From: Mimachlamys varia
Lineage: Eukaryota; Mollusca; Bivalvia; Pectinida; Pectinidae
DNA length: 64,000 bases
Reading direction: 5' to 3'
Assembly (NCBI GenBank): GCA_947623455.1
Contig: OX392529.1
Coordinates: 2,170,001-2,234,000, forward strand
Under the pieces are notes generated by a model. That model saw only the letters and a list, made by a program, of their open reading frames with translations, was not told the DNA's origin and did not search any database. Made by a program: the position numbers and the translations under genes. Position 1 is the first letter of the stretch, and each line of letters opens with the position of its first letter. Shown one piece after another: positions 25,801 to 60,000 of this stretch.

Positions 25801-28800
25801 TTAGACAAATAATTACTGGTGTTTAGATGTGAATGTAGCCTTGTAAATATCAGATCTAAGTATGGTGGAGCTTGACAGTACTGACACACTAATTGGGAAC
25901 TATTTAAACAGTACAGGTGTGAAGGTCACTGGTTTCCTGGTGTAGACCAGGGCACTTGTTGTTACCTGTCAAGTATCAATCTGGCCTTACTCTCTACCTT
26001 ACTATGTCACATTGTCCAGGGTTTTCTCATTAATTTAAAATGTTCTAACTAATCATAGCCATGTTCTAGATTATTTAATATCAGGGTTTGCATGGACCTT
26101 GAAAAAGTTTTGAATTTATAGTATGGCCTTGAAAAGCCTCAAACCCCTATACTGGTTACATACTCCAAGTATTAAAGAACTTTACAACATCATGATTATG
26201 GTCAGAAACACTGCTATGGTTGGTGATCTGTTTAAGAAAACTTTGAATTTTGTAAAATAATTTTGCTCATGATATAATCTGATTTAAAAAAAACAAAAAA
26301 ACTTAACTTTGTCAGATGGATATGACCATCAATGAAATAAATATACAGAGACCTGTTTAAAAATTTATTTGATAGTTATCTGTTAGATGGTTACAGGTAA
26401 GATGATAATTGAATGGATGGTTACCTGTAAGATGGTAACCTGTTATATGGTAACCTGTTAGATGGTTACCTGTTAGATGGCTACCTGTTATATGGTTACC
26501 TGTTATATGGTTACCTGTTAGATGGTTATCTGTTATATGGTTACCTGTTAGATGGTTACCTGTTATATGGCTACATGTTAGACAGCTACCTGTTAAATGG
26601 CTACCTGTTATATGGCTATCTGTTAAATGGCTACCTGTTAGATGGCTACCTGTAAGATTTTTACCTGATATATGGTTACCTGTTAGATGTTTACCTGTAA
26701 GATGGTTACCTGTTATATGGTTACCTGTTAGATGGTTACCTATAAGATGGTTACCTGTAAGATGGTTACCTGTAATATGGTTACCTGTTATATGGTTACC
26801 TGTTAGATGGTTACCTATAAGATGGTTACCTGTAAGATGGTTACCTGTTATATGGTTACCTGTTATATGGTTACCTGTTATATGGTTACCTGTTAGATGG
26901 TTACCTATAAGATGGTTACCTGTAAGATGGTTACTTGTTATATGGGTACCTGTTAAATGGCTACCTGTTATATGGCTACCTGTTAGATGGCTACCTGTTA
27001 GATGGTCACTGTTATATGGTTACCTGTTAAATGGCTACCTGTTAAATGGCTACCTGTTAGATGGCTACCTGTAAGATGGTTACCTGTTATATGGTTACCT
27101 GTTAAATGGCTACCTGTTATATGGTTACCTGTTAGATGGCTACCTGTAAGATGGTTACCTGTTATATGGGTACCTGTTAAATGGCTACCTGTTAGATGTT
27201 TACCTGTAAGATGGTTATCTGTTATATGGTTACCTATAAAATTGTTACCTGTTAGATGGTTACCTGTTTGATGGTTAACTGTAAGATTGTTACCTGTTAG
27301 ATTGTGACCTGTTAGATGGTTACCTGTTATATGGTTATCTGTTAGATGGCTACCTGTTAGATGGCTACCTGTTAGATGGTTACCTGTTAGATTGTTACCT
27401 GTTATATGGTTACCTGTTATATGGTTACCTGTTAGATGGTTACCTATAAGATGGTTACCTGTAAGATGGTTACCTGTTAGATGCTAATTGATAAGATAGT
27501 TACCTGTTAGATGGTTACCTATAAGATGGTTACCTGTAAGATGGTTACCTGTATTATGGTGACCTATAAGATGGTTACCTGTAAGATGGTTACCTGTTAG
27601 ATCGTTACCTGTAAGATTGTTACCTGTTAAATGGTTACCTGTTAGATGGCTACCTGTTAGATGGCTACCTGTTAGATGGTTACCTGTTAGATGGTTACCT
27701 ATAAGATGGTTACCTGTTAAATGGTTACCTGTAAGATGGTTATCTGTTAGATGGCTACCTGTTAGATGGTTACCTGTTTGATGGTTACCTGTAAGATCGT
27801 TATATCTGTGAGATGGTTACCTGTTGGATGATTATTGGAGATATCTATTTCAGCCTCTGTAGAAGATGTTGATGTATCAGATGACATAGAAAAGGATGGA
27901 GGGTTGACAGGAAGGGCATCACTAACACCTACCTCCAGGTAAGTTACCTGTCATAACACCTACCTCCAGGTAAGTTACCTGTCATAACACCTACTTCCAG
28001 GCAAGTTACCTGTCATAACACCAAACTCCAGGTAAGTTACCTGTCATTATACCTACCTCCAGGTAAGTTACCTGTCATAACACCTACCTCCAGGTAAGTT
28101 ACCTGTCATAACACCTACCTCCAGGTTAGTTACCTGTCATAACACCAACCTCCAGGTAAGTTACCTGCCATAATACATACCTCCAGGTTAGTTACCTGTC
28201 ATAACACCTACCTCCAGGTTAGTTACCTGTCATAACACCTACCTCCAGGTAAGTTACCTGTCATTACACCAACCTCCAGGTTAGTTACCTGTCATTACAC
28301 CAACCTCCAGGTTAGTTACCTGTCATAACACCTATCTCCAGGTAAGTTACCTGTCATTACACCAACCTCCAGGTTAGTTACCTGTCATAACACCTATCTC
28401 CAGGTAAGTTACCTGTCATAACACCAACCTCCAGGTATGTTACCTGTCATAATACATACCTCCAGGTAAGTTACCTGTCATAACACCTACCTCCAGGTAA
28501 GTTACCTGTCATAACACCTACCTCCAGGTAAGTTACCTGTCATAACACCTACCTCCAGGTAAGTTATCTGTCATAACACCTACCTCCAGGTTAATTACCT
28601 ATCATTATACCTACCTCCAGGTGAAGGTGGTATGTGTCAAAAGTGTTGAAATCTCCAAACAACTTCTCAGTAACCAAAAGGCCCAGTTGCTGACATTGGC
28701 CCAACATCGTGTTGTAATGCAGGGCTAGCAAGTTTGTTCAAATGATTGATCTTGACTTATCTTCAAGGTCACTGCATGGGTTGAATTCATTTTACAAGAC

Positions 28801-31800
28801 TTCTCAAACCAATATGCTAGGTTGATCATAATATATTTGTGTAAAGGGATTCCAAATTTGTTTATATCAAGGTCACAGCATCAAATATGTTTATATTGTA
28901 ATTGCATTCCTCTGAATAGCCAATCAGTAACATTTGGCTTATAGCTTTTTGTGTAACTTTTAAAACTACCTGTGTGAGATTTGTACCATATGAGCGATGC
29001 AGGCCCATTGAGCCTCTTATAGAAAATGGTTCTCCGTATTTGTATTTTGTATTGTTAACCTTAAAGTTGTTGTAACTATGTATATATGAATCTTGTGTAT
29101 TTATTTTGCAGCTCCCCAGAGTGTGAGTCAGAGGCGATGATGCAAGCCATAGTACAGCAAACAATGTCTAGGATACCATCCAGTTCATCTGTCAACCATT
29201 ACAGGCTACCGGACAACGACCTTCACAGTACACGTGGTAATGACCTTCACAATACACCGGACAACGACCTTCACAGTACACCGGACAACGACCTTCACAG
29301 TACACCGGACAACGACCTTCACAGTACACCAGACAACGACCTTCACAGTACACCTGGCAACGACCTTCACAGTACACCTTGCAACGACCTCCAGAATCTG
29401 GGAAGTAGACTCTCTGTGGAACCGCCTGTTGACATTATGTATAATTCATATGATGACTCGCCAAGGATTGACTTCCAGCATTCTCACTGCCAAGACTCTG
29501 CACAAAGCGACACTCAGAACCATAGTCAGGTTCATTTTGATGAGGAAGAAGATGATTCAGATCCACGTCTTGGAATTCCAGAAGTAAAAACTTATAACGA
29601 AATTCTGATCCAAGAGCGTTACCATGAGAAACGCCAGAAAATCAAGTATCGTTCTAAACAACATTGTATGACTCCTCGTGAAAGACCAGAGAGTGCCCCC
29701 TTACACAGAAATAAATGCCAAAGTGATGACCAGCTGTCTATTTTATGTTCCCCGAGGTCTGCTGGTCATTCAGGGATCGGCACTAACAAACTACAAAAAT
29801 CGAGTGTACATCAGTCTAACCACAGTTTAAACGTAGTTCCTGAAAATCATGATTTAGGATCACGCAGGTTGGTATCTGAATCGGACATCAGAAATGTTGG
29901 TTTAGAAACTTCTGGAATATTTTTCTCAAAGTCCTCAAATACAGAATCAGTGGGGTCAGACTTGTCGACGGACACACTGGTGTCCTCTCAGCAAACCTTA
30001 ACCGACCTCACGGAGTCTTACCCCAAAGTCACCTTACATTCTCACTCACCCCGGAAGAAATTTCGTTTTAAAAATATTTTCAAAGGTAAAAAAGGCCATT
30101 ACAATCCATCTCAGGTAGAAGCCAATTTACCTGTGGATTTAGAGACTATGTTAAAACGGTCTTCTGAATCAGATATATCTCGTCACCAGGAGGTCAATCA
30201 AACTTTCTACTCTGTGCAATACGAACAATCCAAAAACCATGGTCTTCATGATGAAGATGAAGAATCAGGTGACCATTCTAATGGTGAAAGTCCTCAGACC
30301 ATTAATAAACATCAAGGTGCTGAAAACAACATCAAGGGAGTTGACTGCCATACTGCTGCAAACTGCTCTAATGTAAATACTTCAAGTGAATGTCTGCCTA
30401 GTGAAGCTGTGCTGGGACCACCTCCCGCCTACAGCACACATCTGGTAGACAGCCAGCTGACTGCCTATGAAGCTGCGCTGGTCAATCTTGACCAGAATGG
30501 AGTGGACATTGATGAGTTGATAGAGAGTGACTCGGATAGTGTGTTCTCAGCCAAACCTGTGGTTATAGATTCACAGCAGAAAAATCAAAATAAGAGATCT
30601 GTAACTTTGGAATCAAGTGAGCGAAAAAAAGGTGAGAGAATAGATCTAGTAGGTGATTCTACATCGTCTGCTGTGGGAGCGGAGAAAGAAGACGACACGG
30701 GGAATTCTGAAGATGAAGTGTTTATACCAAAGCCTGGCGATCAGGGACTGGAGCAAGGCGACTGTAGGCCAGAGGGAGGCAAGGGACCAGCGCCTGGAGA
30801 CCAGGGGTCAGAGCATGGACACCAGGGGTCAAACCATGGACACCAGGGATCAAACCATGGAGACCAGAGGTCAGAACATGGACCCCAGGGGTCAAACCAT
30901 GGAGACCACGGGTCAGAGCATGAAGACCAGGGGTCAGAGCAAGGAGACCAGGGGTCAGAGCTTGGAGACCAGGGGTCAGAGCAAGGGGACCAGGGGTCAG
31001 AGCATGAATACCAGGGGTCAGAGCTTGGAGACCAGGGGTCAGAGCTTGGAGACCAGGGGTCAGAGCATGGAGACCAGGGATCAGAGCATGGAGACAAGGG
31101 GTCAGAGCTTGGAGACCAGTGGTCAGAGCTTGGAGACCAGGGACAAGAGCCTGTAGACCAAGGGTCAAAGCAAAGAAATCAGAGGTCAGAGCCTATTGAA
31201 CAAAGGTCAGAGCCTGTAGACCAAAGGTCAGAGCCTGTAGACCAAAGGTCAGAGCATGGAGACCAGGGGTCAGAGAATGGAACCAGTACACAGGAGAGGG
31301 ACCTAGCACAAGGGTCGTATGCTACAGTGATTGTACACAGTGACTCTAGTGTCGGTCCAGGGGCACAGAATAGATCAGGTATGTGGTAGTTAGAACAGTT
31401 CTAACACTCAGTGATGCTCAGTAGTCTGTCACACAGAACAGTTCAGGTATGTGGTACTTAGAACAGTTCTAACACTCAGTGATGCTCAGTAGTCCGTCAC
31501 ACAGAACAGTTCAGGTATGTGGTACTTAGAACAGTTCTAACACTCAGTGATGCTCAGTAGTCTGTGACACAGAATAGTTCTAACACTCAGTGATGCTCAG
31601 TAGTCGGTGACACAGAACAGTTCTAACACTCAGTGATGCTCAGTAGTCTGTGACACAGAATAGTTCTAACACTCAGTGATGCTCAGTAGTCGGTGACACA
31701 GAACAGTTCTAACACTCAGTGATGCTCAGTAGTCTGTGACACAGAATAGTTCTAACACTCAGTGATGCTCAGTAGTCGGTGACACAGAACAGTTCTAACA

Positions 31801-34800
31801 CTCAGTGATGCTCAGTAGACCGTGACACAGAACAGTTCTAACACTCAGTGATGCTCAGTAGTCGGTGACACAGAATAGTTCAGGTATGTGGTACTTAGAA
31901 CAGTTCTAACTGTCAGTGATGGTCAGTAGACCGTGACACAGAATAGTTCAAGTATGTAGTACTTAGAACAGTTCTAACACTCAGTGATGCTCAGTAGACC
32001 GTGACACAGAATAGTTCAGGTATGTGGTACTTAGAACAGTTCTAACTGTCAGTGATGAACAGTAGTCAGTGACACAGAATAGTTCAGGTATGTGGTACTT
32101 AGAACAGTTCTAACACTCAGTGATGAACAGTAGTCAGTGACACAGAATAGTTCAGGTATGTGGTACTTAGAACAGTTCTAACACTCAGTGATGAACAGTA
32201 GTCAGTGACACAGAATAGTTCAGGTATGTGGTACTTAGAACAGTTCTAACACTCAGTGATGTTCAGTAGTCCGTGACACAGAATAGTTCAGGTATGTAGT
32301 ACTTAGAACAGTTCTAACACTCAGTGATGCTCAGTAGTCCGTGACACAGAACAGTTCAGGTATGTGGTACTTAGAACAGTTCTAACACTCAGTGATGCTC
32401 AGTAGTCCGTCACACAGAACAGTTCTAACACTCAGTGATGCTCAGTAGTCCGTCACACAGAATAGTTCAGGTATGTGGTACTTAGAACAGTTCTAACACT
32501 CAGTGATGCTCAGTAGTCTGTGACTTAGAAAAAAGCAGAACTTACATGTTAGCTAGTTTTCAGTTACAGTAAATCCCCTTTTACTGGAACTCATCGGGAC
32601 CTGATCAATAGTCGAGGAATACATGGTATTCGAGTAATCCGAGTTTGGTTGAAAATGTACGATGTTGGTTGGGACCAAACGAACTGTTCGAAGAATGAGG
32701 AGTATTGGAGTAAACCGAGTTCGAGTGAGTGGGGTATTACTGTAAGCTGTTTCTATTAAGACTGAAATGTGTGCACATAAATGAATACCAATGCCATGTT
32801 AACAACATGTTAAAACCAAAACTTTATCTTCAGATTCTAACAACTGTACTGATGAATTGGACCTGTCCAACAAACTTGAGGAGATGGGAAGTTCTAAAGC
32901 CAGGGGAGATAACCAAACAAAGCAGTTTTCCTTCGTAGCAGCAGGTAGCCATGTGGATGATAGTATCACTGTGTTGGAGGAAAGCACACACCCCGCACCA
33001 AAGAGGACATACCAAAGGTAGGTAACTCTATCTCACCCATCACAGTTCGGACAACTTAAATATAACAGTTGTGATGATGTTACAGCAGTATCAATGAACA
33101 CCTAACAGGGATTATTGCTGGTTTTTGTGTCAGTCTGGCACACAACTGAGCATCAAGCATTGAAATGTTACACCAATGAAAATCATTTAAAAACATCCGC
33201 AAGCTTTGTCTTATATCTGCAAAATTTTCCGTTTTTATAAACTGAAATAAAAAGAAAAGATATTTAACATGATAAGTATATTTCATCAAGAAAATATTTG
33301 TAACTTAGTGTTACCAAGGTAACAAGTGATTGATGTTTTACAGGGAGGAGAGTAACTTAGTGTTACCAAGGTAACAAGTGATTGATGTTTTATAGGGAGG
33401 AGAGAAACTAAGTGTTACCAAGGTAACAAGTGATTGATGTTTTATAGGGAGGAGAGTAACTAAGTGTTACCAAGGTAACAAGTGATTGATGTTTTATAGG
33501 GAGGAGAGTAACTAAGTGTTACCAAGGTAACAAGTGATTGATGTTTTATAGGGAGGAGAGAAACTAAGTGTTACCAAGGTAACAAGTGATTGATGTTTTA
33601 TAGGGAGGAGAGTAACTAAGTGTTACCAAGGTAACAAGTGATTGATGTTTTACAGGGAGGAGAGTAACTTAGTGTTGCCAAGGTAACAAGTGATTGATGT
33701 TTTACAGGGAGGAGAGTAACTAAGTGTTACCAAGGTAACAAGTGATTGATGTTTTACAGGGAGGAGAGTAACTTAGTGTTACCAAGGTAACAAGTGATTG
33801 ATGTTTTACAGGGAGGAGAGTAACTTAGTTAGAAGTAAGGAACTGAGCGCATCGAAACAATCACTCGGTGACAAAGTCAGATCATCTGCCAAGAGCAAGT
33901 TCAAGGCCATTCGTAAGGCGGTCAGTCTGGACAAGGGCCTGAACAAGATAGGGGAAGACAACCCTGATCACACCACCAAGAACAAAAACAAGGAAAAGAA
34001 GAAGTCAGGCTTTAAAATGCCTAAGATCAAAGCTGCTCTGTTTACCAGAAAGAAGAAATCCAAACCACCCCTGGCTCCAGACTCTTCTACAGGAAAACAA
34101 AGGTATACATATAGTCATCACTGGAACGATGTTTGTAGTTTTGTGTATTTGATGTATATGTGTGTGTGGTTTTATATGTAGGAGACAATTTTTTAAGTGC
34201 GAGCAAACACACTTATTAAATTTGTCTGGTCTGTGTCCTGTTTCCAGTATATGTGCAAAAACCCACTGCGCATATAATACCAGATATAAAGGTCAGTGTT
34301 ACCTGCTAATGTTTCGAGCAAATTTTACTTTTGTGCACTCATGTCATCAGAAATAGAATGCCATATAATGTATAAATACTCCTTACCAGATATCTGTGCA
34401 ATTTAAACCTAGCTCTAACAGTCTGGTCGAACATGCTACGACACACATTTTGTAGGTCAGCACAAGCTGAAGCAGTACATCTTATCAGCGCTTGTATTGG
34501 TTAAGATTGTTAAGCACTTCTGTGACAGAAAGCTAGGGGCGATTATTCTTAACTACTGGAATCTTAGAAAGCATGAATTTGACGTCTGAATTTTGTACTC
34601 TGCTTTGTTGAATGAAATGCTTGATAATACTTGAATGACAGCTACTCTGTTCGTCTGTTAATCTCATTTTATTAGCTCACCTGGCCGGAAGGTCCGTCTT
34701 CCGTCCGGCCATCCTATGTCCGTCAACTTTTTCCTTTAAACGACTTCTTCTAAAATACCAAACGGCCTAGTAACATGAAATTTGGTTGGTAGCTTTCTTG

Positions 34801-37800
34801 GAAGAAACTGAACAAAGTTTGCGAAAAAAATCACTTTGACCTACTTTCAAGGTCACAGGGGTCAAAAATGTCAAAACCTTCAAATACCATCAGGCATAAA
34901 GACCTCATATTTGACAGTATAAAGTTTGCGAAAAGAAAAGACCTTGACCCATATTCAATGTCACATCTATTATTACCTTTAAACGACTTCTTCTAATAAA
35001 CCAAAACCCCTAGAAGCATGATATTTGGCTGAAAGGTTCCTTGGATGAAGTCCGACAAAGTTTGCGAAAAGAAATGACCTTGACCTAAATTCAAGGTCAC
35101 AGGGGTCAAATCTGTTAAAACATTTGAACGACTTCTTCTAATTAACCAACAAGCCTAGAGACATTATATTTGGCTGGTAGCTTCCTTGGATGAACCCAAC
35201 AAAGTTTGCGAAAAGAAATGACCTTGACCTATATTCAAGGTCACAAGGGTCAAATCTGTTAAAACCTTCAAACGACTTCTTCTGAAATACCAAAAGCCCT
35301 AGAAGCATGATATTTGGCTGGTAGCGTCCTGAGATGAAAGCAAACAAAATTTGAAAATGAAAATGATGTTGTCTTACAAGGTCACAGGGGTAAAATATGT
35401 TAAAATGTTAACACGTTCTTCAAAATGTCTTACAGTAAAAGATTTTAGGGGACTTTAGGGCTACACTTTAATATAAGTCAGAGATTGATACCAGGTGAGC
35501 AATGCAGGCCCATTGGGCCTCTTGTTGGTATAAGGTATGATTAAAACGAATGCTGACAATAAATGTTTTTTTTAAGAATATAAAAATAACATACTTTTCA
35601 TAGCAGCCCTAGGCATGAGGAATTCGGTCAAAACAGAACAACAGAACCAAGTTTCTATTAGATACTACATGAACATTTCTTGCAATTTTGGGTATCGCCT
35701 TTAGGATAAAAATTGAGAGAAATTACAGCGTTTTGGGGGAAATTGGTAGCATTATGTAGACAAAAACATATTGCCTAAAAGATCAATATACGAGGATATT
35801 CATTGAAATTTGATTTCAAGTGTTTACAGCGTACAGACAGCAGTAATATTGATCGGAAATTTCTCGCATTCCATGAGCATGATTTTCAATGCTCAATTGC
35901 AGCTGCAAAGCCATCATCATGTAAAAATACATGTAAAGCGTTTTTTTAGTATTATTATTACAGACATATAAATGAATTAATTGAATTACTTGGTATATAT
36001 GTCATCATAATAATTTAAAGGTCACATTCTAGACAAAAATGAATTACTTAAGAATCAAATTCTCAAATAAAAAAATAATGAAATGCCTGTGCTGCAATCA
36101 CTACCATGGAAATAAACTCAAACCAAATAATATGTCAGTGCTGGTAGAATTATTTCACAAGGTCAAATTCCGTTTGTTTATAGGGATCAAACTTTTTTTA
36201 TCTGTGAAATAATAACGTATCAAAACATGACATTTAGGTATATATACAATGAAACGTTTTACACTGGCTACATTCAGGGGCTTGAAGTTTTATATTTGAA
36301 AAAAAAAAAATTTAATTTAAAACTAAATCTACTGTATTCACCGTAATTAGCGCCTTTCACCTAAAAACTACCCATTCTGGTCCCAAAACATCGTACTTCA
36401 TGACTGTAATAGAAAAAAAAGTTTTTGTTCACGAGTTCTTTTTGTTATCCTATTAAGCAACCTCTTCAAAATTTTAGTTGCCCTGTGCGCTAATTACGGC
36501 AAATACTTAAGCGAAATCTTAAGGAGGTGCGAGCACACTTCAAGTCTTCCAGACATATTTCTAGTTTTAATAGTGTAATTTGATTACCGTATGTGTACAA
36601 TTTATTTTATCTAATTTCAGTTTTGACACCAAGACTCCATTAGAAACGGCCAAAAATGATGAAGGTGAGAAGCAGCAAGATAAACAAGGAGGTTATATGG
36701 GGAAAGTTTCCTCCTGTCAGTCTTTGGAGTCCCTAGACAACACACCGGATACTGGCCTGGTGGAGAGGCATGGTTCCCTCGGCAAGCTCCTCAAACTCAA
36801 TCAGGACGGTACACATGTCATCCAAATACACAAGCCCAAACATGGACCAGTGGGATTCTTCATCGCCAGGGGCAACGCTCAGTTCAATCATGGTATGTGA
36901 CTGTCAGGTTAAATACCCTGTATAGTTACTGTCAGGTTAAATACCCCGTATAGTTACTGTCAGGTTAAATACCCTGTATAGTTACTGTCAGGTTAAATAC
37001 CCTGTATAGTTACCGTCAGGTTAAATACCCTGTATAGTTACTGTCAGGTTAAATACCCTGTATAGTTACTGTCAGGTTAAATACCCTGTATAGTTACTGT
37101 CAGGTTAAATACCCTGTATAGTTATTGTCAAGTTAAATACCCTGTATAGTTACTGTCAGGTTAAATACCCTGTATAGTTACCGTCAGGTTAAATACCCTG
37201 TATATTTACTGTCAGGTCAATTAAATACCCTGTATAGTTACTGTCAGGTCAATTAAATACCCAGTATATTTACTGTCAGGTTAATTCAATACCCTGTATA
37301 TTTACTGTCAGGTTAATTAAATACCCTGTATAGTTACCGTCAGGTTAAATACCCTGTATAGTTATTGTCAGGTTAAATACCCTGTATAGTTACCGTCAGG
37401 TTAAATACCCTGTATAGTTATTGTCAGGTTAAATACCCTGTATAGTTATTGTCAGGTTAAATACCCTGTATAGTTACTGTCAGGTTAAATACCCTGTATA
37501 ATTACTGTCAGGTTAAATACCCTGTATAGTTATTGTCAGGTTAAATACCCTGTATAGTTACTGTCAGGTTAAATACCCCGTATAGTTACTGTCAGGTTAA
37601 ATACCCTGTATAGTTACTGTCAGGTCAATTAAATACCCTGTATATTTACTGTCAGGTTAATTAAATACCCTGTATAGTTACTGTCAGGTCAATTAAATAC
37701 CCTGTATAGTTACTGTCAGGTCAATTAAATACCCTGTATAGTTACTGTCAGGTTAAATACCCTGTATAGTTACTGTCAGGTTAAATACCCTGTATAGTTA

Positions 37801-40800
37801 CCGTCAGGTTAAATACCCTGTATAGTTATTGTCAGGTTAAATACCCTGTATAGTTACTGTCAGGTTAAATACCCTGTATAGTTACCGTCAGGTTAAATAC
37901 CCTGTATAGTTACTGCCAGGTGAAATACCCTGTATAGTTACTGTCAGGTCAATTAAATACCCTGTATATTTACTGTCAGGTTAATTAAATACCCTGTATA
38001 GTTACTGTCAGGTTAAATACCCTGTATAGTTACTGTCAGGTTAAATACCCTGTATAGTTATTGTCAGGTTAAATACCCTGTATAGTTACTGTCAGGTTAA
38101 ATACCCTGTATAGTTACCGTCAGGTTAAATACCCTGTATAGTTACTGTCAGGTTAAATACCCTGTATAGTTACTGTCAGGTCAATTAAATACCCTGTATA
38201 TTTACTGTCAGGTTAATTAAATACCCTGTATAGTTACTGTCAGGTCAATTAAATACCCTGTATAGTTACTGTCAGGTCAATTAAATACCCTGTATAGTTA
38301 CTGTCAGGTCAATTAAATACCCTGTATAGTTACTGTCAGGTTAAATACCCTGTATAGTTAGCGTCAGGTTAAATACCCTGTATAGTTACCGTCAGGTTAA
38401 ATACCCTGTATAGTTATTGTCAGGTTAAATACCCTGTATAGTTACTGTCAGGTTAAATACCCTGTATAGTTACTGTCAGGTCAATTAAATACCCTGTATA
38501 GTTACTGTCAGGTTAATTAAATACCCTGTATAATTACTGTCAGGTTAATTAAATACCCTGTATAATTACTGTCAGGTTAAATACCCCGTATAGTTACTGT
38601 CAGGTTAATTAAATACCCTGTATAGTTACTGTCAGGTCAATTAAATACCCTGTATATTTACTGTCAGGTTAATTAAATACCCTGTATATTTACTGTCAGG
38701 TTAATTAAATACCCTGTATAGTTACTGTCAGGTTAAATACCCTGTATATTTACTGTCAGGTCAATTAAATACCCTGTATAGTTACTGTCAGGTTAAATAC
38801 CCTGTATAGTTACTGTCAGGTTAAATACCCTGTATAGTTACTGTCAGGTTAAATACCCTGTATAGCTACTGTCAGGTTAAATACCCCGTATAGTTACTGT
38901 CAGGTTAAATACCCTATATAGTTACTGTCAGGTCAATTAAATACCCTGTATAGTTACTGTCAGGTTAAATACCCTGTATAGTTACCGTCAGGTCAAATAC
39001 CCTGTATAGTTACTGTCAGGTTAAATACCCTGTATAGTTACTGTCAGGTCAATTAAATACCTTGTTAGCTCACCTGGTCCAAAGGACCAAGGTGAGCTTA
39101 TGCGATACCGTGTCGTCCGTCGTCCGTCGTCCGTCGTCCGTCCGTCGTCCGTCGTCCGTCCGTCAACAATTGACTTCTTCTTTATAACCACTGATCGGAA
39201 TTTGACCAAATTTGGTCAGAAGCATCCCTATGGGGTGGGGACTCAAAATTGTACAAATGGTTGGGCTGACCCCCCAGGGGCCTGGGGGGCGGGGCCAAAA
39301 GGGGTCAATTTGGCTATTTGATATAAACGACTACTTCTCTGAAACCGAGCAATGTATATTGCTCATATTTGGCTGGTAGTATTACTATGGGTTGGGGATT
39401 CAAAATTGTACAAATGGTGGGGCTGACCCCCCAGGGGCCTGGGGGGCGGGGCCAAAATGGTAAGTTGGCTATATTGATATAAACGACTTCTTCTCTGAAA
39501 CCCAGTAATATATATCGCTCATATATGGCTGGTAGCATCACTATTGAGTGGGGATTCAAAATTGTACAGATGGTGGGGCTGACCCCCAAGGGGCCTGGGG
39601 GGCGGGGTCAAAAGGGGTCAATTTGGCTATATTGATATAAACGATTTCTTCTCTGAAACCCAGTAATGTATATCGCTTATATTTGCCTGGTAGCATTACC
39701 ATGGGGTGTGGATTCAAAATTGTATAAATGGTGGGTCTGACCCCCAAGGGGCCTGGGGGTGGGGCCAAAAGTGGCCAATTTGGCTATATTGATAAAAAAC
39801 ATCTTCTTTTCTGAAACTGTACAATGTATATCACACAAGTTTGTTCAAACGAATACATAGACCTTCATTCACGGGGATCAAACAGGTTAAAGGGTCGCGG
39901 CGCCAAATACGGGAACCAGAAAATTCTTTAACATCTGTTTCCAAAAAAATCAAGGATTTTGTGCATGTATACCCGGTAGCATGTTTGGAAAAATGATATC
40001 CTATTTTGTTGGACTATGTATTGGAGCCTTTTTCTTTATCTATTCTTTTATCAGATATCAACATTTTAGTTTAACTGGCAGGTCTCAAACTGAAAATGTG
40101 TACATAAAATATTTTGAACCAGGTGAGCGATACAGGCCCTCTGGGCCTCTTGTATAGTTACTGTCAGGTTAAATACCCTGTATAGTTACTGTCAGGTTAA
40201 ATACCCTGTATAGTTACTGTCAGGTCAATTAAATACCCTGTATAGTTACTGTCAGGTCAATTAAATACCCTGTATAGTTACTGTCAGGTTAAATACCCTG
40301 TATAGTTATTGTCAGGTTAAATACCCTGTATAATTACTGTCAGGTCAATTAAATACCCTGTATATTTCATTGTAGAATGCATGTGTTGGGTAACTAATAA
40401 CTCACTGTAAAACCATATCTTAAGTGTAACATAACAGAAATTTCCTTAATCGCTCAACCAAGTCTGTAACATAACAGAAATCTCCTTTATTGCTCAACTA
40501 TGTCTATAACATTACAGGAAATCTCCTTAATCGCTCAACCATGTCTGTAACATAACAGAAATCTCCTTAATTGCTCGACCATGTCTGTAACATAACAGAA
40601 ATCTCCTTAATCGCTCAACCATGTCTGTAACATAACAGAAATCTCCTTAATCGCTCAACCATGGCCTGTAATATAAAGTTAATCACAATAATCAAGCAAC
40701 CAAGTCTATATATCATTATACCCCCTGCAACGAAGTTAGGTGGGGTATACTGAAATCAGGTTGTTCGTCTGTCTGTCTGTCTGTAGACACAATTTTGTCC

Positions 40801-41287: not shown

Positions 41288-42392
41288 TGTACGACACCAA
41301 GATGTGTGATGTACGACACCAAGATGTGTGATGTACGACACCAAGATGTGTGATGTACGACACCAAGATGTGTGATGTACGACACCAAGATGTGTGATGT
41401 ACGACACCAAGATGTGTGATGTACGACACCAAGATGTGTGATGTACGACACCAAGATGTGTGATGTACGACACCAAGATGTGTGATGTACGACACCAAGA
41501 TGTGTGATGTACGACACCAAGATGTGTGATGTACGACACCAAGATGTGTGATGTACGACACCAAGATGTGTGATGTACGACACCAAGATGTGTGATGTAC
41601 GACACCAAGATGTGTGATGTACGACACCAAGATGTGTGATGTACGACACCAAGATGTGTGATGTACGACACCAAGATGTGTGATGTACGACGCCAAGATG
41701 TGTGATGTACGACACCAAGATGTGTGATGTACGACACCAAGATGTGTGATGTACGACACCAAGATGTGTGATGTACGACACCAAGATGTGTGATGTACGA
41801 CACCAAGATGTGTGATGTACGACACCAAGATGTGTGATGTACGACACCAAGATGTGTGATGTACGACACCAAGATGTGTGATGTACGACACCAAGATGTG
41901 TGATGTACGACACCAAGATGTGTGATGTACGACACCAAGATGTGTGATGTACGACACCAAGATGTGTGATGTACGACACCAAGATGTGTGATGTACGACA
42001 CCAAGATGTGTGATGTACGACACCAAGATGTGTGATGTACAATGCCAAGATGTGTGATGTACGACACCAAGATGTGTGATGTACAATGCCAAGATGTGTG
42101 ATGTACGACACCAAGATGTGTGATGTACAATGCCAAGATGTGTGATGTACGACACCAAGATGTGTGATGTACGACACCAAGATGTGTGATGTACGACACC
42201 AAGATGTGTGATGTACGACACCAAGATGTGTGATGTACAATGCCAAGATGTGTGATGTACGACACCAAGATGTGTGATGTACAATGCCAAGATGTGTGAT
42301 GTACGACACCAAGATGTGTGATGTACGACACCAAGATGTGTGATGTACGACACCAAGATGTGTGATGTACGACACCAAGATGTGTGATGTAC
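41266..42392. repeat. 22-bp array starting in the last codons of the PDZ gene, about 51 copies
   Basis: Unit CCAAGATGTGTGATGTACGA plus CA. The first copy contains CAA GAT GTG TGA, the final QDV codons and stop of the gene. Only ACGACA and ACAATG variants plus one CGCCAAG variant are seen, so homogenisation is strong. The minus strand lacks stops in all frames, giving open frames of up to 403 residues that are not genes. Confidence 0.97.
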
Positions 42393-48759: not shown

Positions 48760-48765
48760 TTTATT
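48760..48765 (-). terminator. Candidate poly(A) signal (AATAAA) on the minus strand
   Basis: On the minus strand this reads GAAATAAAAGATGTAATACA. If TSEN15 transcripts run through both arrays at 49091-56832, this would be the first good signal outside them. Inference only. Confidence 0.25.
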
Positions 48766-49860: not shown

Positions 49861-49914
49861 CTGTATATTTCAACATATTCCAGCTGTGTGCATGTGTAGT
49901 AAGCCACCTCACTA

Positions 49915-52900
49915 CTGTATGTTTCGTGTGTCTCTACCTCACTGTGTTCCGTGTGTAATCCGCGCTGTACGTTCTACCTCACTGTGTTCCGTGTGTAATC
50001 AGTGCTGTACATTCTACCTCACTGTGTTACGTGTGTAATCCGCGCTGTACGTTCTACCTCACTGTGTTCCGTGTGTAATCAGTGCTGTACATTCTACCTC
50101 ACTGTGTTACGTGTGTAATCAGCACTGTACGTTCTACCTCACTGTGTTCCGTGTGTAATCCGCGCTGTACGTTCTACCTCACTGTGTTCCGTGTGTAATC
50201 AGTGCTGTACATTCTACCTCACTGTGTTCCGTGTGTAATCCGCGCTGTACGTTCTACCTCACTGTGTTCCGTGTGTAATCCGCGCTGTACGTTCTACCTC
50301 ACTGTGTTCCGTGTGTAATCAGCATTGTACATTCTACCTCACTGTGTTCCGTGTGTAATCAGCGCTGTACGTTCTACCTCACTGTGTTCCGTGTGTAATC
50401 AGTGCTGTACATTCTACCTCACTGTGTTCCGTGTGTAATCAGTGTTGTACATTCTTCCTCACTGTGTTCCGTGTGTAATCAGTGCTGTACATTCTACCTC
50501 ACTGTGTTCCGTGTGTAATCAGTGCTGTACGTTCTACCTCACTGTGTTCCTTGTGTAATCAGTGCTGTACGTTTTACCTCACTGTATTCCTTGTGTAATC
50601 AGCATTGTACATTCTACCTCACTGTGTTCCTTGTGTAATCAGTGCTGTACATTCTACCTCACTGTGTTCCGTGTGTAATCAGTGCTGTACGTTCTACCTC
50701 ACTTTGTTCCGTGTGTAATCAGTGCTGTACGTTCTACCTCACTGTGTTCCGTGTGTAATCAGCACTGTACATTCTACCTCACTGTGTTCTGTATGTAATC
50801 AGTGCTGTACATTCTACCTCACTGTGTTCCATGTGTAATCAGTGTTGTATGTTCTACCTCACTGTGTTCCGTGTGTAATGAGTGCTGTACATTCTACCTC
50901 ACTGTGTTCCGTGTGTAATTAGTGCTGTACGTTCTTCCTCACTGTGTTCCTTGTGTAATCAGTGTTGTACGTTCTACCTCACTGTGTTCCGTGTGTAAAC
51001 AGTGTTGTACATTCTACCTCACTGTGTTCCGTGTGTAATCAGCGCTGTACGTTCTTCCTCACTGTGTTCCTTGTGTAATCAGTGCTGTACGTTCTTCCTC
51101 ACTGTGTTCCTTGTGTAATCAGTGCTGTACGTTCTACCTCACTGTGTTCCGTGTGTAATCAGTGCTGTACATTCTACCTCACTGTGTTCCGTGTGTAATC
51201 AGTGCTGTACATTCTACCTCACTGTGTTCCGTGTGTAATCAGCGCTGTACGTTCTTCCTCACTGTGTTCCTTGTGTAATCAGTGCTGTACGTTCTTCCTC
51301 ACTGTGTTCCTTGTGTAATCAGTGCTGTACGTTCTTCCTCACTGTGTTCCTTGTGTAATCAGTGCTGTACGTTCTTCCTCACTGTGTTCCTTGTGTAATC
51401 AATGCTGTACATTCTACCTCACTGTGTTCCTTGTGTAATCAGTGCTGTACGTTCTTCCTCACTGTGTTCCGTGTGTAATCAGCACTGTACATTCTACCTC
51501 ACTGTGTTCTGTGTGTAATCAGTGCTGTACGTTTTACCTCACTGTGTTCCGTGTGTAAACAGTGCTGTACATTCTACCTCACTGTGTTCCGTGTGTAAAC
51601 AGTGCTGTATGTTCTAACTCACTGTGTACCGTGTGTAATCAGTGCTGTACGTTCTACCTCACTGTGTTCCTTGTGTAATCAGTGCTGTAAGTTCTACCTC
51701 ACTGTGTTCCTTGTGTAATCAGTGCTGTACGTTCTACCTCACTGTGTTCCTTGTGTAATCAGTGCTGTAAGTTCTACCTCACTGTGTACCGTGTGTAATC
51801 AGTGCTGTACATTCTACCTCACTGTGTTCTGTGTGTAATCGGCACTGTAAGTTCTACCTCACTGTGTTCCGTCTGTAATCAGCACTGTACATTCCACCTC
51901 ACTGTGTTCCGTGTGTAATCAGTGCTATACGTTCTACCTCACTGTGTTCCGTGTGTAATCAGTGCTGTTCGTTCTACCTCAATGTGTTCCGTGTGTAATC
52001 GGCACTGTACGTTCTACCTCACTGTGTTCCGTGTGTAATCAGTGTTGTACGTTCTACCTCACTGTGTTCCATGTGTAATCAGTGTTGTACGTTCTACCTC
52101 ACTGTGTTCTGTGTGTAATCAGTGCTGTACGTTCTACCTCACTGTGTTCCGTGTGTAAACAGTGCTGTATGTTCTACCTCACTGTGTTCCGTGTGTAATC
52201 AGTGCTGTACATTCTACCTCACTGTGTTCCGTGTGTAATCAGTGCTGTACATTCTACCTCACTGTGTTCCGTGTGTAATCAGTGTTGTACATTCTACCTC
52301 ACTGTGTTCCGTGTGTAATCAGTGCTGTACGTTCTACCTCACTGTGTTCTGTGTGTCATCAGTGCTGTACGTTCTACCTCACTGTGTTCCGTGTGTAATC
52401 AGTGCTGTACGTTCTACCTCACTGTGTTCTGTGTGTAATCAGTGCTGTACGTTCTACCTCACTGTGTTCCGTGTGTAATCAGTGCTATACGTTCTACCTC
52501 ACTGTGTTCCTTGTGTAATCAGTGCTATACGTTCTACCTCACTGTGTTCCGTGTGTAATCAGTGCTGTACGTTCTACCTCAATGTGTTCCGTGTGTAATC
52601 GGCACTGTACGTTCTACCTCACTGTGTTCCGTGTGTAATCAGTGCTGTACGTTCTACCTCACTGTGTTCCTTGTGTAATCAGTGTTGTACATTCTAACTC
52701 ACTGTGTTCCGTGTGTAATCAGTGCTGTAAGTTCTACCTCACTGTGTTCCGTGTGTAATCAGTGCTGTACATTCTACCTCACTGTGTTCCGTGTGTAATC
52801 AGTGCTGTACATTCTACCTCACTGTGTTCCGTGTGTAATCAATGCTGTACGTTCTACCTCACTGTGTTCCTTGTGTAATCAGTGCTGTACGTTCTACCTC

Positions 52901-55900
52901 ACTGTGTTCCGTGTGTAATCAGTGCTGTACGTTCTAACTCACTGTGTTCCTTGTGTTATCAGTGTTGTACATTCTACCTCACTGTGTTCCGTGTGTAAAC
53001 AGTGTTGTACATTCTACCTCACTGTGTTCCGTGTGTAATCAGTGTTGTACATTCTACCTCACTGTGTTCCGTGTGTAAACAGTGTTGTACGTTCTTCCTC
53101 ACTGTGTTCCATGTGTAATCAGTGTTGTACGTTCTACCTCACTGTGTTCCGTGTGTAATCAGTGTTGTACATTCTACCTCACTGTGTTCCATGTGTAATC
53201 AGTGCTGTACGTTCTACCTCACTGTGTAACGTGTGTAATCAGTGTTGTACGTTTACCTCACTGTGTTCCGTGTGTAATCAGTGCTGTACGTTCTACCTCA
53301 CTGTGTTCCGTGTGTAATCAGTGTTGTATGTTCTACCTCACTGTGTTCCGTGTGTAATCAATGCTGTACATTCTACCTCACTGTGTTCTGTGTGTAATCA
53401 GTGCTGTACGTTCTAACTCACTGTGTTCTGTGTGTAATCAGGGCTGTACGTTCTACCTCACTGTGTTCCGTGTGTAATCAGTGTTGTATGTTCTACCTCA
53501 CTGTGTTCCGTGTGTAATCAGTGTTGTATGTTCTACCTCACTGTGTTCCGTGTGTAATCAGTGCTGTACATTCTACCTCACTGTGTTCCGTGTGTAATCA
53601 GTGCTGTACGTTCTAACTCACTGTGTTCCTTGTGTAATCAGGGCTGTACGTTCTAACTCACTGTGTTCCGTGTGTAATCAGTGCTGTACGTTCTACCTCA
53701 CTGTGTTCCGTGTGTAATCAGTGCTGTACGTTCTACCTCACTGTGTTCCGTGTGTAATCAGTGTTGTACGTTCTACCTCACTGTGTTCCGTGTGTAATCA
53801 GTGTTGTACGTTCTACCTCACTGTGTTCCGTGTGTAATCAGGGCTGTATGCTTACCTCACTGTGTTCCGTGTGTAATCAGGGTTGTACGTTCTACCTCAC
53901 TGTGTTCCGTGTGTAATCAGTGCTGTACGTTCTACCTCACTGTGTTCCGTGTGTAATCAGTGTTGTACATTCTACCTCACTGTGTTCCGTGTGTAATCAG
54001 TGTTGTACATTCTACCTCACTGTGTTCCGTGTGTAATCAGTGCTGTACGTTCTACCTCACTGTGTTCCGTGTGTAATCAGTGCTGTACATTCTACCTCAC
54101 TGTGTTCCGTGTGTAATCAGTGCTGTACGTTCTACCTCACTGTGTTCCGTGTGTAACCAGTGCTGTACATTCTACCTCACTGTGTTCCGTGTGTAATCGG
54201 CGCTGTACATTCTACCTCACTGTGTTCCGTGTGTAATCAGTGCTGTACATTCTACCTCAATGTGTTACGTGTGTAATCAGCACTGTACATTCTACCTCAA
54301 TGTGTTACGTGTGTAATCAGCACTGTACATTCTACCTCAATGTGTTACGTGTGTAATCAGCACTGTACATTCTACCTCACTGTGTTCCGTATGTAATCAG
54401 CACTGTACATTCTACCTCAATGTGTAACGTGTGTAATCAGCACTGTATGTTCTACCTCAATGTGTTACGTGTGTAATCAGCACTGTACATTCTACCTCAC
54501 TGTGTTACGTGTGTAATCAGTGCTGTACGTTTTACCGCACTGTGTTCCATGTGTAATCGGCGCTGTACATTCTACCTCAATGTGTTCCGTGTGTAATCAG
54601 CACTGTACATTCTACCTCACTGTGTTACGTGTGTAATCAGCACTGTACATTCTACCTCAATGTGTTCCGTGTGTAATCAGCACTGTACGTTCTACCTCAC
54701 TGTGTTACGTGTGTAATCAGCACTGTACATTCTACCTCACTGTGTTCCGTGTGTAATCAGCACTGTACATTCTACCTCACTGTGTTCCGTGTGTAATCAG
54801 CACTGTACATTCTACCTCAATGTGTTACGTGTGTAATCAGCGCTGTACGTTCTACCTCAATGTGTTACGTGTGTAATCAGCACTGTACATTCTACCTCAC
54901 TGTGTTACGTGTGTAATCAGTGCTGTACGTTTTACCGCACTGTGTTCCATGTGTAATCGGCGCTGTACATTCTACCTCAATGTGTTACGTGTGTAATCAG
55001 CACTGTACATTCTACCTCACTGTGTTACGTGTGTAATCAGCACTGTACATTTTACCTCACTGTGTTCCGTGTGTAATCAGCACTGTACATTCTACCTCAC
55101 TGTGTTACGTGTGTAATCAGCACTGTACATTTTACCTCACTGTGTTCCATGTGTAATCGGCGCTGTACATTCTACCTCACTGTGTTCCTTGTGTAATCAG
55201 TGCTGTACGTTCTACCTCACTGTGTTCCGTGTGTAATCAGTGCTGTACGTTTTACCGCACTGTGTTCCATGTGTAATCGGCGCTGTACATTCTACCTCAA
55301 TGTGTTACGTGTGTAATCAGCACTGTACATTCTACCTCAATGTGTTACGTGTGTAATCAGCGCTGTACATTCTACCTCAATGTGTTCCGTGTGTAATCGG
55401 CGCTGTACATTCTACCTCAATGTGTTACGTGTGTAATCAGCGCTGTACATTCTACCTCAATGTGTTACGTGTGTAATCAGCGCTGTACATTCTACCTCAA
55501 TGTGTTACGTGTGTAATCAGTGCTGTACATTCTACCTCAATGTGTTACGAGTGTAATCAGCACTGTACATTCTACCTCACTGTGTTCCGTGTGTAATCAG
55601 TGCTGTACATTCTACCTCAATGTGTTACGAGTGTAATCAGCGCTGTACGTTCTACCTCAATGTGTTACGTGTGTAATCAGTGCTGTACGTTCTACCTCTC
55701 TGTGTTCCGTGTGTAATCAGTGCTGTACGTTCTACCTCTCTGTGTTCCGTGTGTAATCAGCACTGTACATTCTACCTCAATGTGTTACGTGTGTAATCAG
55801 CACTGTACATTCTACCTCAATGTGTTACGTGTGTAATCAGCACTGTACATTCTACCTCACTGTGTTCCATGTGTAATCAGTGCTGTACATTCTACCTCAC

Positions 55901-56832
55901 TGTGTTCCGTGTGTAATCAGTGCTGTACATTCTACCTCACTGTGTTCCGTGTGTAATCAGTGCTGTACATTCTACCTCACTGTGTTACGTGTGTAATCAG
56001 CACTGTACATTCTACCTCAATGTGTTACGTGTGTAATCAGCACTGTACATTCTACCTCACTGTGTTACGTGTGTAATCAGCACTGTACATTCTACCTCAA
56101 TGTGTTCCGTGTGTAATCAGCACTGTACATTCTACCTCACTGTGTTACGTGTGTAATCAGCACTGTACATTCTACCTCAATGTGTTCCGTGTGTAATCAG
56201 CACTGTACGTTCTACCTCACTGTGTTACGTGTGTAATCAGCACTGTACATTCTACCTCACTGTGTTACGTGTGTAATCAGCACTGTACATTCTACCTCAA
56301 TGTGTTCCGTGTGTAATCAGCACTGTACGTTCTACCTCACTGTGTTACGTGTGTAATCAGCACTGTACATTCTACCTCACTGTGTTACGTGTGTAATCAG
56401 CACTGTACATTCTACCTCACTGTGTTACGTGTGTAATCAGCACTGTACATTCTACCTCAATGTGTTACGTGTGTAATCAGCACTGTACATTCTACCTCAC
56501 TGTGTTACGTGTGTAATCAGTGTTGTATGTTCTACCTCACTGTGTTACGTGTGTAATCAGTGTTGTACATTCTACCTCACTGTGTTACGTGTGTAATCAG
56601 TGTTGTATGTTCTACCTCAATGTGTTACGTATGTAATCGGCGCTGTACGTTCTACCTCACTGTGTTACGTGTGTAATCAGCACTGTACATTCTACCTCAC
56701 TGTGTACCGTGTGTAATCAGCACTGTACATTCTACCTCACTGTGTTACGTGTGTAATCAGCACTGTACGTTCTACCTCACTGTGTTCCGTGTGTAATCAG
56801 CACTGTACATTCTACCTCACTGTGTTACGTCC
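49915..56832. repeat. 40-bp satellite-like array, about 173 copies, next to the TSEN15 stop
   Basis: Unit ACTGTGTTCCGTGTGTAATC plus AGTGCTGTACGTTCTACCTC. Copies vary at a few sites; the left part is rich in GTTCCG and GTTCCT, the part after about 54250 in GTTACG with AGCACTG, so different subfamilies occupy different zones. It ends 7 bp from the TSEN15 stop codon. Confidence 0.97.
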
Positions 56833-56839
56833 TGCATTA

Positions 56840-57089
56840 CTATGTTCCTTGTGTCTCTTTAAGAAGTTCTGTTTTACTACTTTCCACTTCATTTGAGCTG
56901 TCACACCTAAGTTTCTTTTCGATATATTTATTAACACTAGCGATCACATCTATTCTCCGTTTGTTTATGCGTTCTGTGTGATATAACTTCTTTTTCTCTG
57001 TCATTTCTGGGCAGGGTGGAGGCACAAGGCCGTCTGATATTTTGTAGTAAACAGTTGTGGAATCTGTGTCCATAACAGCCATTGTTATT
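56840..57089 (-). CDS. TSEN15: TSEN15 terminal coding exon 4
   Basis: On the minus strand the acceptor TGTTCTGTTTCTTTCAG precedes AATAACAATGG in phase 2. It encodes ITMAVMDTDSTTVYYKISDG, the most conserved Sen15 segment, then PPPCPEMTEKKK and a charged tail ending ETQGT-stop. The ATG inside it is internal, not the start. The stop is 7 bp from the 40-bp array. Confidence 0.93.
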
Positions 57090-60000
57090 CTGAAAGAAAC
57101 AGAACACTGTTATTAAGATAAAGCAAGAGGCCCAGATGGCCTGTATTGCTCATGTATCAGTTAAATTGCACACACTTTTCCAGCGTGGAATCTGCTGTAG
57201 TACTGTATGGTGGCATGCGGTAAATATAATTAATGAACACATAGCTCTCAAATTCAGAAGTAGATTAAAGACAATTTAGTTGAAATTGGTTTCCATAAAT
57301 AAAGCTGAACTGCTGGCTTTTAGCCCCACCCCTCAGGCCCCTGGAAGGTCAGACCCATCTTTTAAAAAAATTTGATTCTCAGACACCTAGGGTTGCTACC
57401 ACTGAAATATAAATCTTATACATTGCTTAGATCCAAAGAAGAAGTTGTCAATATCAATATTACCAAATGGACCCTTTTTGGCCCTCCCCTCAGGCCCCTT
57501 GGAGTCATCCTTATCATTTGTAATATGACAAAGGCAAAGCCTTAAAATAGCATAGCTTCAGTATAGTAAAGGTCTGATATTAACTGAGAATCATCATTCA
57601 TGTACTGGGTTCATCATGAAATAAAGTTTCCACAATTTAAAGTCGGCAAGTCGGAAAAAACAAGAAGCACAATGGGCCTATATCACTCACCTGTTATCAA
57701 TCTCTTACCTGTAACCCAAGTCGCCTAAATCTATTATTTATTAAAGTAAAACAAGGTCATTTTCATAAGCAAATTTTGTTTGGCTTCTTCCAAGAAATTT
57801 AGCAGCCAAATATCAAGTTTCTAGGCCTTTTGGTATTTCAGGAGACTTTGTTAAAAGATTTTAACAGATCTGAACCCTGTTACCTTGAATACGGGTCAAG
57901 TTAATTTCTTTTTTCAAACTTTGTAAGGCTTTATTCAAGGAATCTTTTAGCTGTATATCATGCTTCTAGGCATTTAGGTTAATCAGAAGAAGTTGTTTTA
58001 TGGTTTTAACAGATTTGACCCCTGTGATCTTGAATAAATGTCAAGGTCATTTATTTTTGCAAAATTCATCTGGATTCATCAAAGGAAGCTACCAGCAGAA
58101 TATCATGCTTCTAGGCCTTATTGTATTTCAGAAGTAGTTGTTAAAGGTTTTAACAGATCTGAACCCTGTGACCTTGAATATGGGTCAAGGTCTTTTCTTT
58201 TTTCAAAGTTTGTAAGACTTTATCAAAGGAATCTTTCAGCAAAATATCATGCTTCTAGACATTTTGGTTAGTCGGGAAAAGTTGTTTAAATGTTTAAACA
58301 ATTTTGACTCCCTGTGACCTTGAATAGGGGTCAAAGTCATTTAATGTTTGAGATTTATCCAGCTTCATCCAAGGAAGCTAACAGCCAAATATCATGCTTC
58401 TAAGCATTTTGGAATTTCAGAAGATGCCATCTAAAGATTTTAACAGATTTATTTGACCCTTCGGGCCAGGTGAGCTAAACGAGAGGCACAATGGGCCTGC
58501 ATTGCTCACCTTGAGTTAGTGTGTGAAAGTAGGTCTGTAGATCACTAGGGTAACGGTGATCTGTCTCACTGTACTTACCCTGTCTGGTAGTTCTCCAGAG
58601 TTATTGTGTTGAGGTAGGTCTGTAGATCACTAGGGGTAACGGTGATCTGTCCCATTGTACTTACCCTGTCTGGTAGTTCTCCAGAGTTGGTGTGTGGAGG
58701 TAGGTCTGTAGATCACCAGGGGTAACGGTGATCTGTCCCACTGTACTTACCCTGTCCTGTAATTCTCCAGAGTTAGTGTGTGGAGGTAGGTCTGTAGATC
58801 ACTAGGGGTAACGGTGATCTGTCCAACTTTACTTACCCTGTCTGGTAGTTCTCCAGAGTTAGTGTGTGGAGGTAGGTCTGTAGATCACCAAGGGTAACGG
58901 TGATCTGTCCCGCTGTACTTACCCTGTCTGGTAGTTCTCCAGAGTTAGTGTGTGGAGGTAGGTCTGTAGATCACTAGGGGTAACGGTGATCTGTCCCACT
59001 GTACTTACCCTGTCTGGTAGTTCTCCAGAGTTAGTGTGTGGAGGTAGGTCTGTAGATCACTAGGGGTAATGGTGATCTGTCCCACTGTACTTACCCTGTC
59101 TGGTAGTTCTCCAGAGTTAGTGTGTGGAGGTAGGTCTGTAGATCACTAGGGGTAATGGTGATCTGTCCCACTGTACTTACCCTGTCTGGTAGTTCTCCAG
59201 AGTTAGTGTGTGGAGGTAGGTCTGTAGATCACTAGGGGTAATGGTGATCTGTCCCACTGTACTTACCCTGTCTGGTAGTTCTCCAGAGTTAGTGTGTGGA
59301 GGTAGGTCTGTAGATCACTAGGGGTAATGGTGCACCCCCGGGGGAGAGGCAGCACCAACTCCCGAGGAGTATGTCTAGTTGCATGTCCAGATATAAAAAC
59401 AAGGCCAAGGTCACAGCAAGTATGAAGATCAAGATTCCACCATTGTTTTGCTACAAAAATAATACATAAAGATACAGCTGAAAAACTAAACAGTAATTTA
59501 CAATAACCTCAGCTTTGTTAGTGTAGTGGTTACTGTTAGCAATATAACAAATCCCTTTCCCACAGTTTCTGTGGTATTGAGATTTTGTTGATGTGACACA
59601 GAGATGGACTCACCTTCACATAGGTCCAGGTAAACCAAGCGAGCAGCTATCAGCTGTTCCCTATTCCCAAGCTCATACTTCTCAATTTCTTTGAACTGTA
59701 AAAAATGAAGCTTCAGTTTAATGAAGGTTAATGTGTGATTCAATTCTGCATCATTTATTTTGTGAAGATATGGAAAATGGAATGAACATACATGTAGAAA
59801 TTTGATGCACAGAAACTGGACTAACAAATTTCCCAAAACCATGTCGATACAAATTGAAATCATAGACTTCAAACTTTTAAGGCAATAGAAATAAAAAAAG
59901 ACATAACATTTGCTGATCAATTACTGTAAAGAGAATTCCTGGTCCATTACTTTTATAATTTTCAAAATCCTGTTTTGAAGGATCTTACATTTGAGATAAT

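Follow-up and report, generated by a model that had tools for sequence, protein, structure and literature searches.

In the genome of the variegated scallop, Mimachlamys varia, minisatellite arrays sit at the exon edges and stop codons of two neighbouring genes – here called the PDZ gene, and TSEN15 – and in five of these arrays the repeat unit itself takes in coding bases (16, 15, 18, 13 and 66 nucleotides). Both genes lie in one stretch of 64,000 nucleotides (C3:2170001-2234000; hereafter the window). The arrays are probably ordinary short tandem duplications that have been tolerated, of the same kind as the ‘mirages’ described in amphioxus, and similar ones straddle exon edges in several other genes of the same genome.

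The genome sequence comprises 975,302,275 bases in 71 contigs. For the window, Tandem Repeats Finder (TRF) returned 68 rows, which were merged by hand into 29 arrays covering 39,050 bases, or 61% of the window (61-63% across two estimates). Gene models were rebuilt from AG/GT flanks and open reading frame, with the PDZ exons numbered as in an earlier note made from the letters of the window. That note had assigned seven arrays to coding landmarks; with the TRF arrays set against the rebuilt models, all seven (7/7) lie where it placed them. It had also counted at least five units with exon bases, which are the five given above, and had held that each stop codon starts or adjoins an array, as is the case: the PDZ stop falls inside the first unit of its array and the TSEN15 stop lies 10 bp from its own.

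Arrays at the coding landmarks of two genes

The PDZ gene has six modelled exons on the plus strand, reading in frame. Exon 3 (27854..27938; donor 27938), with AG/GT flanks and an open frame, runs into an array at 27923..28622, whose 31-bp unit, present in 22.6 copies, joins 16 exon nucleotides to 15 intron nucleotides with the GTAAGT donor inside; the GT is intact in 21 of the 22 full copies. The donor of exon 4 (29112..31378; donor 31378) is likewise covered: a composite array of 68/43-bp units (31364..32518) begins 15 nucleotides inside the exon and holds 11 CAGGTATGT sites, the real donor among them. Beyond exon 5 (32834..33017), an array at 33300..33829 crosses the acceptor of exon 6 (33812..34102; acceptor 33812); the final 18 nucleotides of this array of 52-bp units lie inside the exon, and all ten copies (10/10) keep the AG. 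At exon 7 (36621..36892; donor 36892) the array (36893..39049; 28-bp unit) contains no exon nucleotide, its first base being that of the donor GT. Finally, the last exon (exon 8 with the stop codon, 41091..41287) overlaps an array of 50.9 copies of a 22-bp unit (41275..42393), the first unit of which consists, at its start, of the last 13 coding nucleotides including the stop codon, which ends at 41287. The Pfam PDZ match in exon 8 scores 18.3 bits, under the curated cut-off of 23.2.

TSEN15 is modelled with three exons on the minus strand, also in frame: exon 2 (59614..59695), exon 3 (59267..59450; donor 59267), where the Pfam Sen15 score of 19.3 bits falls just under the cut-off of 22, and the last exon with the stop codon (56840..57089; stop ending at 56840), which has a Pfam Sen15 match. 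The 86-bp unit of the exon 3 array (58513..59332; minus strand, 9.5 copies; array 1) joins 66 exon nucleotides to 20 intron nucleotides with the donor inside; there are 9 GGTAAGTA sites, and the donor is kept in 9/9 copies. Past the stop codon, after a gap of 10 bp and thus with no overlap, comes an array of 172.5 copies of a 40-bp unit (49933..56830, minus strand). The protein read from the three exons is 86% identical to that of Mizuhopecten yessoensis, the closest of seven aligned proteins, six of which are named as bivalve. When the exons on either side of an array are joined, the frame is open, and TSEN15 aligns with the seven proteins across the junction save for one missing residue. That residue, present in all seven, is absent from M. 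varia at the exon 3/4 junction, where the array donor sits.

The clustering of arrays at these landmarks, which the earlier note had proposed, is clear in the window. The landmark set numbers 19; the first exon of TSEN15 and the beginning of the PDZ gene lie outside it, and one tentative donor (16045) is included. With 27 arrays (the 29 minus two inside coding exon 4), each collapsed to one seed unit, seven of the 19 landmarks have a seed unit within 10 bp, against 1.13 expected under random placement (none of 20,000 placements reached seven) and 1.14 under rotation (p=0.0009). Exact overlaps number five, against 0.77 expected (p=0.0006 by random placement, p=0.0017 by rotation).

Repeats are generally error-prone in assembly, and it might be asked whether such arrays are artefacts. 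Six of the seven span 0.5-2.2 kb, shorter than the usual length of HiFi reads, and the TSEN15 stop array spans 6.9 kb. The copies carry variants in a definite order. The assembly, xbMimVari1.1, was built from 44-fold HiFi long reads, according to excerpts of its description (PMC11252643), and an origin by misassembly is scarcely credible.

Straddling arrays and probable edge enrichment outside the window

Outside the window, 40 exon matches to the Pfam models for kinesin, PDZ and CCT, each with 350 bases on either side, provided 80 exon edges. They were selected by Pfam match and by place, 20 lying less than 7 Mb from chromosome ends and 20 in the interior; several share a gene (L037-L040 and L049-L052, for instance), and their edges are not all independent. 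A script proposed the edges, which were then adjusted manually, with the end of the match standing in where there was no convincing site (acceptors of L033, L036 and L048; donors of L040, L043, L044, L048, L059 and L070), and both the donor matrix and the acceptor rule are approximations. TRF was run at a score of 40 and 1.9 copies on these loci and on a further set of CCT and PDZ genes, and at a score of 50 and at least 2.5 copies on the baseline loci described below.

An array straddles eight of the 80 edges, six in kinesin and two in PDZ exons; about seven genes and six chromosomes are involved, which speaks against the local process suggested in the earlier note. The edges are donors at L036, L038, L039, L045 and L062 and acceptors at L043, L067 and L072. 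L038 and L039 are exons of one gene; the L038 edge is supported by the next exon, L040, in which the domain continues at profile position 286 and joins in frame. As in the window, the splice signals recur with the unit: GGTAAGT ends 11 of 12 copies of the 34-base unit at L039, and at L072 each of the eight full copies has TTTAG or TTCAG directly before the first exon bases. Two arrays, L045 (2.1 copies, with GTTC at both ends as a 4-base direct repeat) and L067 (2.0 copies), have barely two copies and look like young tandem duplications at the first stage of growth. At L062, a 34-base repeat beside the exon grades into a 31-base array. The array at L068 stops one base short of the edge, and those at L035 lie 10 and 14 bases from theirs.

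In the further set, comprising 66 match ends from four CCT genes and eight PDZ loci, for which distances to match ends were measured, no end was overlapped by a TRF array (0/66). At L005 (1666-3154), an array straddles the edge by eye: TRF calls a period of 317 from position 1689, 24 bases off, while a shorter CCACAGGGTAAGG unit begins at the exon end, so TRF can hide straddling arrays. With this set added, the straddled share is 9 of 146 edges.

Such arrays are common in M. varia probably because its genome is crowded with minisatellites. A baseline of 20 loci of 7-10 kb (197 kb in total; hand-picked at round coordinates and one chromosome end, with no random draw) holds 58 arrays over 33% of its length. 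Array cover reaches 0.51-1.00 in four loci less than 6 Mb from a chromosome end (L011, L013, L022 and L028) and averages 0.22 in the other 16, a small sample, yet over all 20 loci cover is not significantly correlated with distance to the chromosome end (Spearman -0.31, p=0.18). Unlike this sample, the four CCT chaperonin genes (L029-L032, 33 kb) have arrays at one place only.

Given one array per two to four kilobases, some would be expected to cross exon ends by chance, and the window is both dense in arrays and near a chromosome end. Among the first arrays beside exons (22 of 23, the outer array of L068 being omitted and L062 counted as one), eight straddle the edge; a uniform fall of seeds across the unit and 350 further bases would give 2.3 (p=0.001). 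If array density is allowed for, the expectation becomes 2.5-4.2 (p=0.0015-0.04), the weakest value belonging to the highest density tried; within 20 bp of the edge, there are 12 of 22 first arrays against 3.6-6.0 expected (p=0.00004-0.006). A stricter shuffle over all 40 exons, with arrays collapsed within each short locus, is conservative in the 0.9-kb pieces cut off by arrays and yields less: eight straddling arrays against 4.96 expected (p=0.077), nine against 6.03 within 10 bp (p=0.09) and 11 against 6.98 within 20 bp (p=0.031). Here the interior exons stand out (three against 0.86, p=0.046), and the exons near chromosome ends do not (five against 4.14, p=0.39). Chance is favoured by the shuffle over all exons and over terminal ones, by the drop to p=0.04, by the empty TRF result at 66 match ends and by the sharing of genes among exons; it is opposed by the seven landmarks of the window, by the first-array counts (also after the GC weighting discussed below), by both counts within 20 bp and by the interior exons. 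On balance, chance placement is an unlikely account of the whole pattern. Enrichment at edges outside the window, weaker than inside it, is probable though modest, about 2-3 fold.

Tandem duplication as the probable origin, and its alternatives

The preferred explanation – ordinary tandem duplication, tolerated by selection – would start from a duplication of about 20-90 bp, probably arising at microhomology, that begins and ends at varying distances from the exon edge it spans. Such duplications would then be amplified to tens of copies, of which the one joined to the exon would stay intact while the others come to lie in the intron or past the stop codon. Since one intact copy remains on the exon side, the message can still be made, presumably by splicing from the exon-side site, and selection would tolerate the array as effectively neutral. 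Duplications wholly inside an exon would survive only when in frame and harmless. PDZ exon 4 holds two internal arrays, at 29208..29390 (24-bp unit, an 8-residue repeat) and 30788..31286 (21-bp unit, a 7-residue repeat), both on the plus strand and in frame, with periods that are multiples of 3. Among the straddling units, 10 of 12 are not multiples of 3, which is consistent with the same explanation, 8 of 12 being expected by chance.

The breakpoints are indeed scattered. In the 12 straddling arrays of window and genome (the stop-codon array, the exon 7 array and L005 being omitted), the edges reach 6-66 nucleotides into the exon, and exon bases make up between 0.15 and 0.79 of the unit, with an even spread (Kolmogorov–Smirnov test against uniform, p=0.62); the share for exon 4 was entered as 14 of 68, the true value being 15. 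As the exon share is evenly spread, there is no fixed cut at the splice site: a process that cuts splice sites was rejected on this ground, and the earlier note’s idea of the junction itself as seed finds no support. The spread of arrays from the intron up to the exon was also rejected, the units containing exon codons.

A transposon carrying the repeats was considered as well and rejected after a BLAST search of the window with 36 unit consensuses. Strong matches at a second place were limited to the 28-bp and 86-bp pairs, to blocks of the same compound array and to dispersed repeats of 144/145 and 158 bp, these last lying away from the landmarks. The 28-bp pair belongs to the exon 7 array, whose unit returns in a second block at 40151..40364 (plus strand), past a repeat-rich stretch. 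In that stretch (39050-40150), repeats of 158 bp part the two blocks, as if a mobile element had inserted. A short dispersed repeat that resembles the end of a mobile element occurs at 35493-35526, 57659-57708 and 58478-58511, one copy abutting the end of a TSEN15 array.

Some observations weigh against tandem duplication and tolerance as a complete account. After GC weighting, the first arrays still straddle edges in 8 of 22 cases against 3.2 expected (p=0.009), and base composition leaves the enrichment partly unexplained. Units have a GC content of 0.397 (background 0.351) and junctions of 0.410 (intron flanks 0.335); because both are GC-richer, about 1.5-fold of the enrichment can be attributed to composition, and the remaining enrichment of about 2.5-fold at edges is left unexplained by this account. 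One idea for the residue is that an array would be kept alive by its exon copy, whose loss is not an option. Furthermore, the point in the unit at which a long array stops is arbitrary, and the outer ends hide the founding duplication.

The last such point concerns TSEN15, whose exon 3 unit recurs, donor included, in a second array upstream of exon 2 (60267..61442, minus strand; array 2), an arrangement that plain tandem growth would not yield. Array 2 has 13 GGTAAGTA sites. Within array 1, the exon copy and the three copies adjoining it share an A at unit position 5, which the farther copies lack and which changes to Ile a Val found in Mizuhopecten and Pecten; as those two have Val, the A may have arisen more recently and been shared among the exon and its neighbours. 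None of the copies in array 2 carries the A (0 copies), and the variant TGGTGATC is found in three copies of array 2 and two of the distal copies of array 1. By both characters array 2 resembles the distal intronic copies more than the exon copy; it may derive from those copies, or may have separated before the A appeared. It is the one hint of relocation or re-integration of a circle, and one hint only. By eye, of 21 residues at the array-covered end of TSEN15 exon 3, four are substituted relative to Mizuhopecten and one is missing; upstream, the count is three substitutions in 40. These numbers are too small for a claim of faster change in the covered end.

The enrichment left after GC weighting would also fit a process directed at junctions, in which breaks or template switching at splice sites – for example through transcription, R-loops or RNA-templated repair – seed the arrays. 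Donors outnumber acceptors by 8 to 4 among the 12 straddling arrays, and donor-like motifs are frequent in the units of the window (score 8 in 9 of 36, where 3.6 are expected; p=0.003). The donor excess is not significant, however (p=0.39), and the 52 units of the 20 baseline loci show no clear enrichment at any score: 12 against 10.5 at score 6 (p=0.37), seven against 3.6 at score 8 (p=0.08), three against 2.0 at score 9 (p=0.32) and three against 1.1 at score 10 (p=0.11). With edges scattered over 6-66 nucleotides of exon, an even exon share and the involvement of stop codons, which are not splice sites, a junction-directed origin appears rather improbable.

The earlier note had also remarked that decoy splice sites stand beside the real ones, and the copy counts given above agree with this. 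Selection might keep such decoys to control splicing or to buffer the loss of a real site, and the splice dinucleotides are indeed well kept at PDZ exon 3, PDZ exon 6, TSEN15 array 1 and L039. In the exon 3 array, variant copies per position average 1.19 over the exon part and 0.87 over the intron part, against 0 and 1 at the GT, a level of variation so low throughout that the retention of the dinucleotides is better put down to recent homogenisation. Moreover, at exon 7 the donor consensus is gone from the typical copy of the array (score -0.2, against 7.4). Selection for decoys is thus very unlikely, and tolerated tandem duplication remains the reading that we favour.

Mirages, related systems and wider implications

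The earlier note knew of no described system of this kind. That was mistaken, for the scallop arrays match the mirages of amphioxus (PMC3087553), reported, in excerpts of two papers, from the Adh, globin, troponin C and PGBD5 genes of Branchiostoma (PMC3087553, PMC3902484); troponin C and, imperfectly, PGBD5 are added by the second (PMC3902484). In both animals minisatellite-like repeats span exon–intron boundaries, 5' and 3', and the excerpts give amphioxus units of 10-160 bp with AG/GT signals in many copies (PMC3087553, PMC3902484). The scallop arrays share these three features: the unit spans the boundary at four junctions of the window (PDZ exons 3, 4 and 6; TSEN15 exon 3) as well as at the straddled edges elsewhere; both boundaries of the intron are affected; and AG or GT is kept in many, though not all, copies.

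There are also differences. The globin gene BflGb6 has 3-6 copies, as far as the excerpts go, whereas the scallop has up to 22.6 copies at a donor and 50.9 at a stop codon. Compared with mirages as the excerpts present them, the scallop case concerns a bivalve, several genes in one genome, stop codons too and one unit that recurs upstream within its gene. Regular splicing is shown in amphioxus by reverse transcription PCR (RT-PCR), again according to the excerpts; in the scallop it is presumed.

Other organisms offer looser parallels, likewise taken from excerpts of the papers cited. In human genes of segmental duplications, internal tandem repeats with units of about 30 bp lie at exon–intron boundaries and can create novel introns (PMC2812944); 27 intron modifications were counted among recent paralogues, with about four repeats on average (PMC2812944). 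The scallop arrays, by contrast, are long and, as far as seen, not confined to such paralogues. In potato RdRp, in ATP2A1 and in fission yeast genes, tandem copies carry splice signals and some may make a new intron (PMC4974935), whereas in the scallop an existing intron is lengthened. Among molluscs, one intron of an abalone gene contains a minisatellite (PMC6905558), and no case of boundary-spanning repeats was found among the literature matches listed.

A wider reading, which we offer tentatively and with more doubt than belief, is that minisatellites arise preferentially at exon edges and are renewed there: the exon copy would anchor, re-seed and homogenise its array, 6-10% of edges would hold intact spare splice sites, and arrays such as those of TSEN15 could move a donor-bearing exon fragment within the gene. 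If true, alternative exon ends and new introns would have a permanent source throughout the genome. Independently of this reading, the scallop arrays extend an amphioxus curiosity of a handful of genes to a mollusc, whose chromosome-scale HiFi genome allows a full count. Where up to about 20 near-identical donors lie beside the real one, an array is a natural test of how the spliceosome chooses the exon-side site and, with stages from two to 50 copies in one genome, the tandem-duplication route to new introns becomes testable with RNA and long-read data already in existence.

The survey of kinesin exons yielded some minor observations. Two low-ranked contigs carry nearly whole, intronless kinesin domains (G000:C33:9806-10723 and C60:3089-4021), one of them with two internal TAG codons; perhaps these are contaminants, one with another genetic code. 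Elsewhere, at G000:C10:7.99-8.95 Mb, there are about five very similar kinesin gene copies, spaced at roughly 0.13-0.38 Mb.

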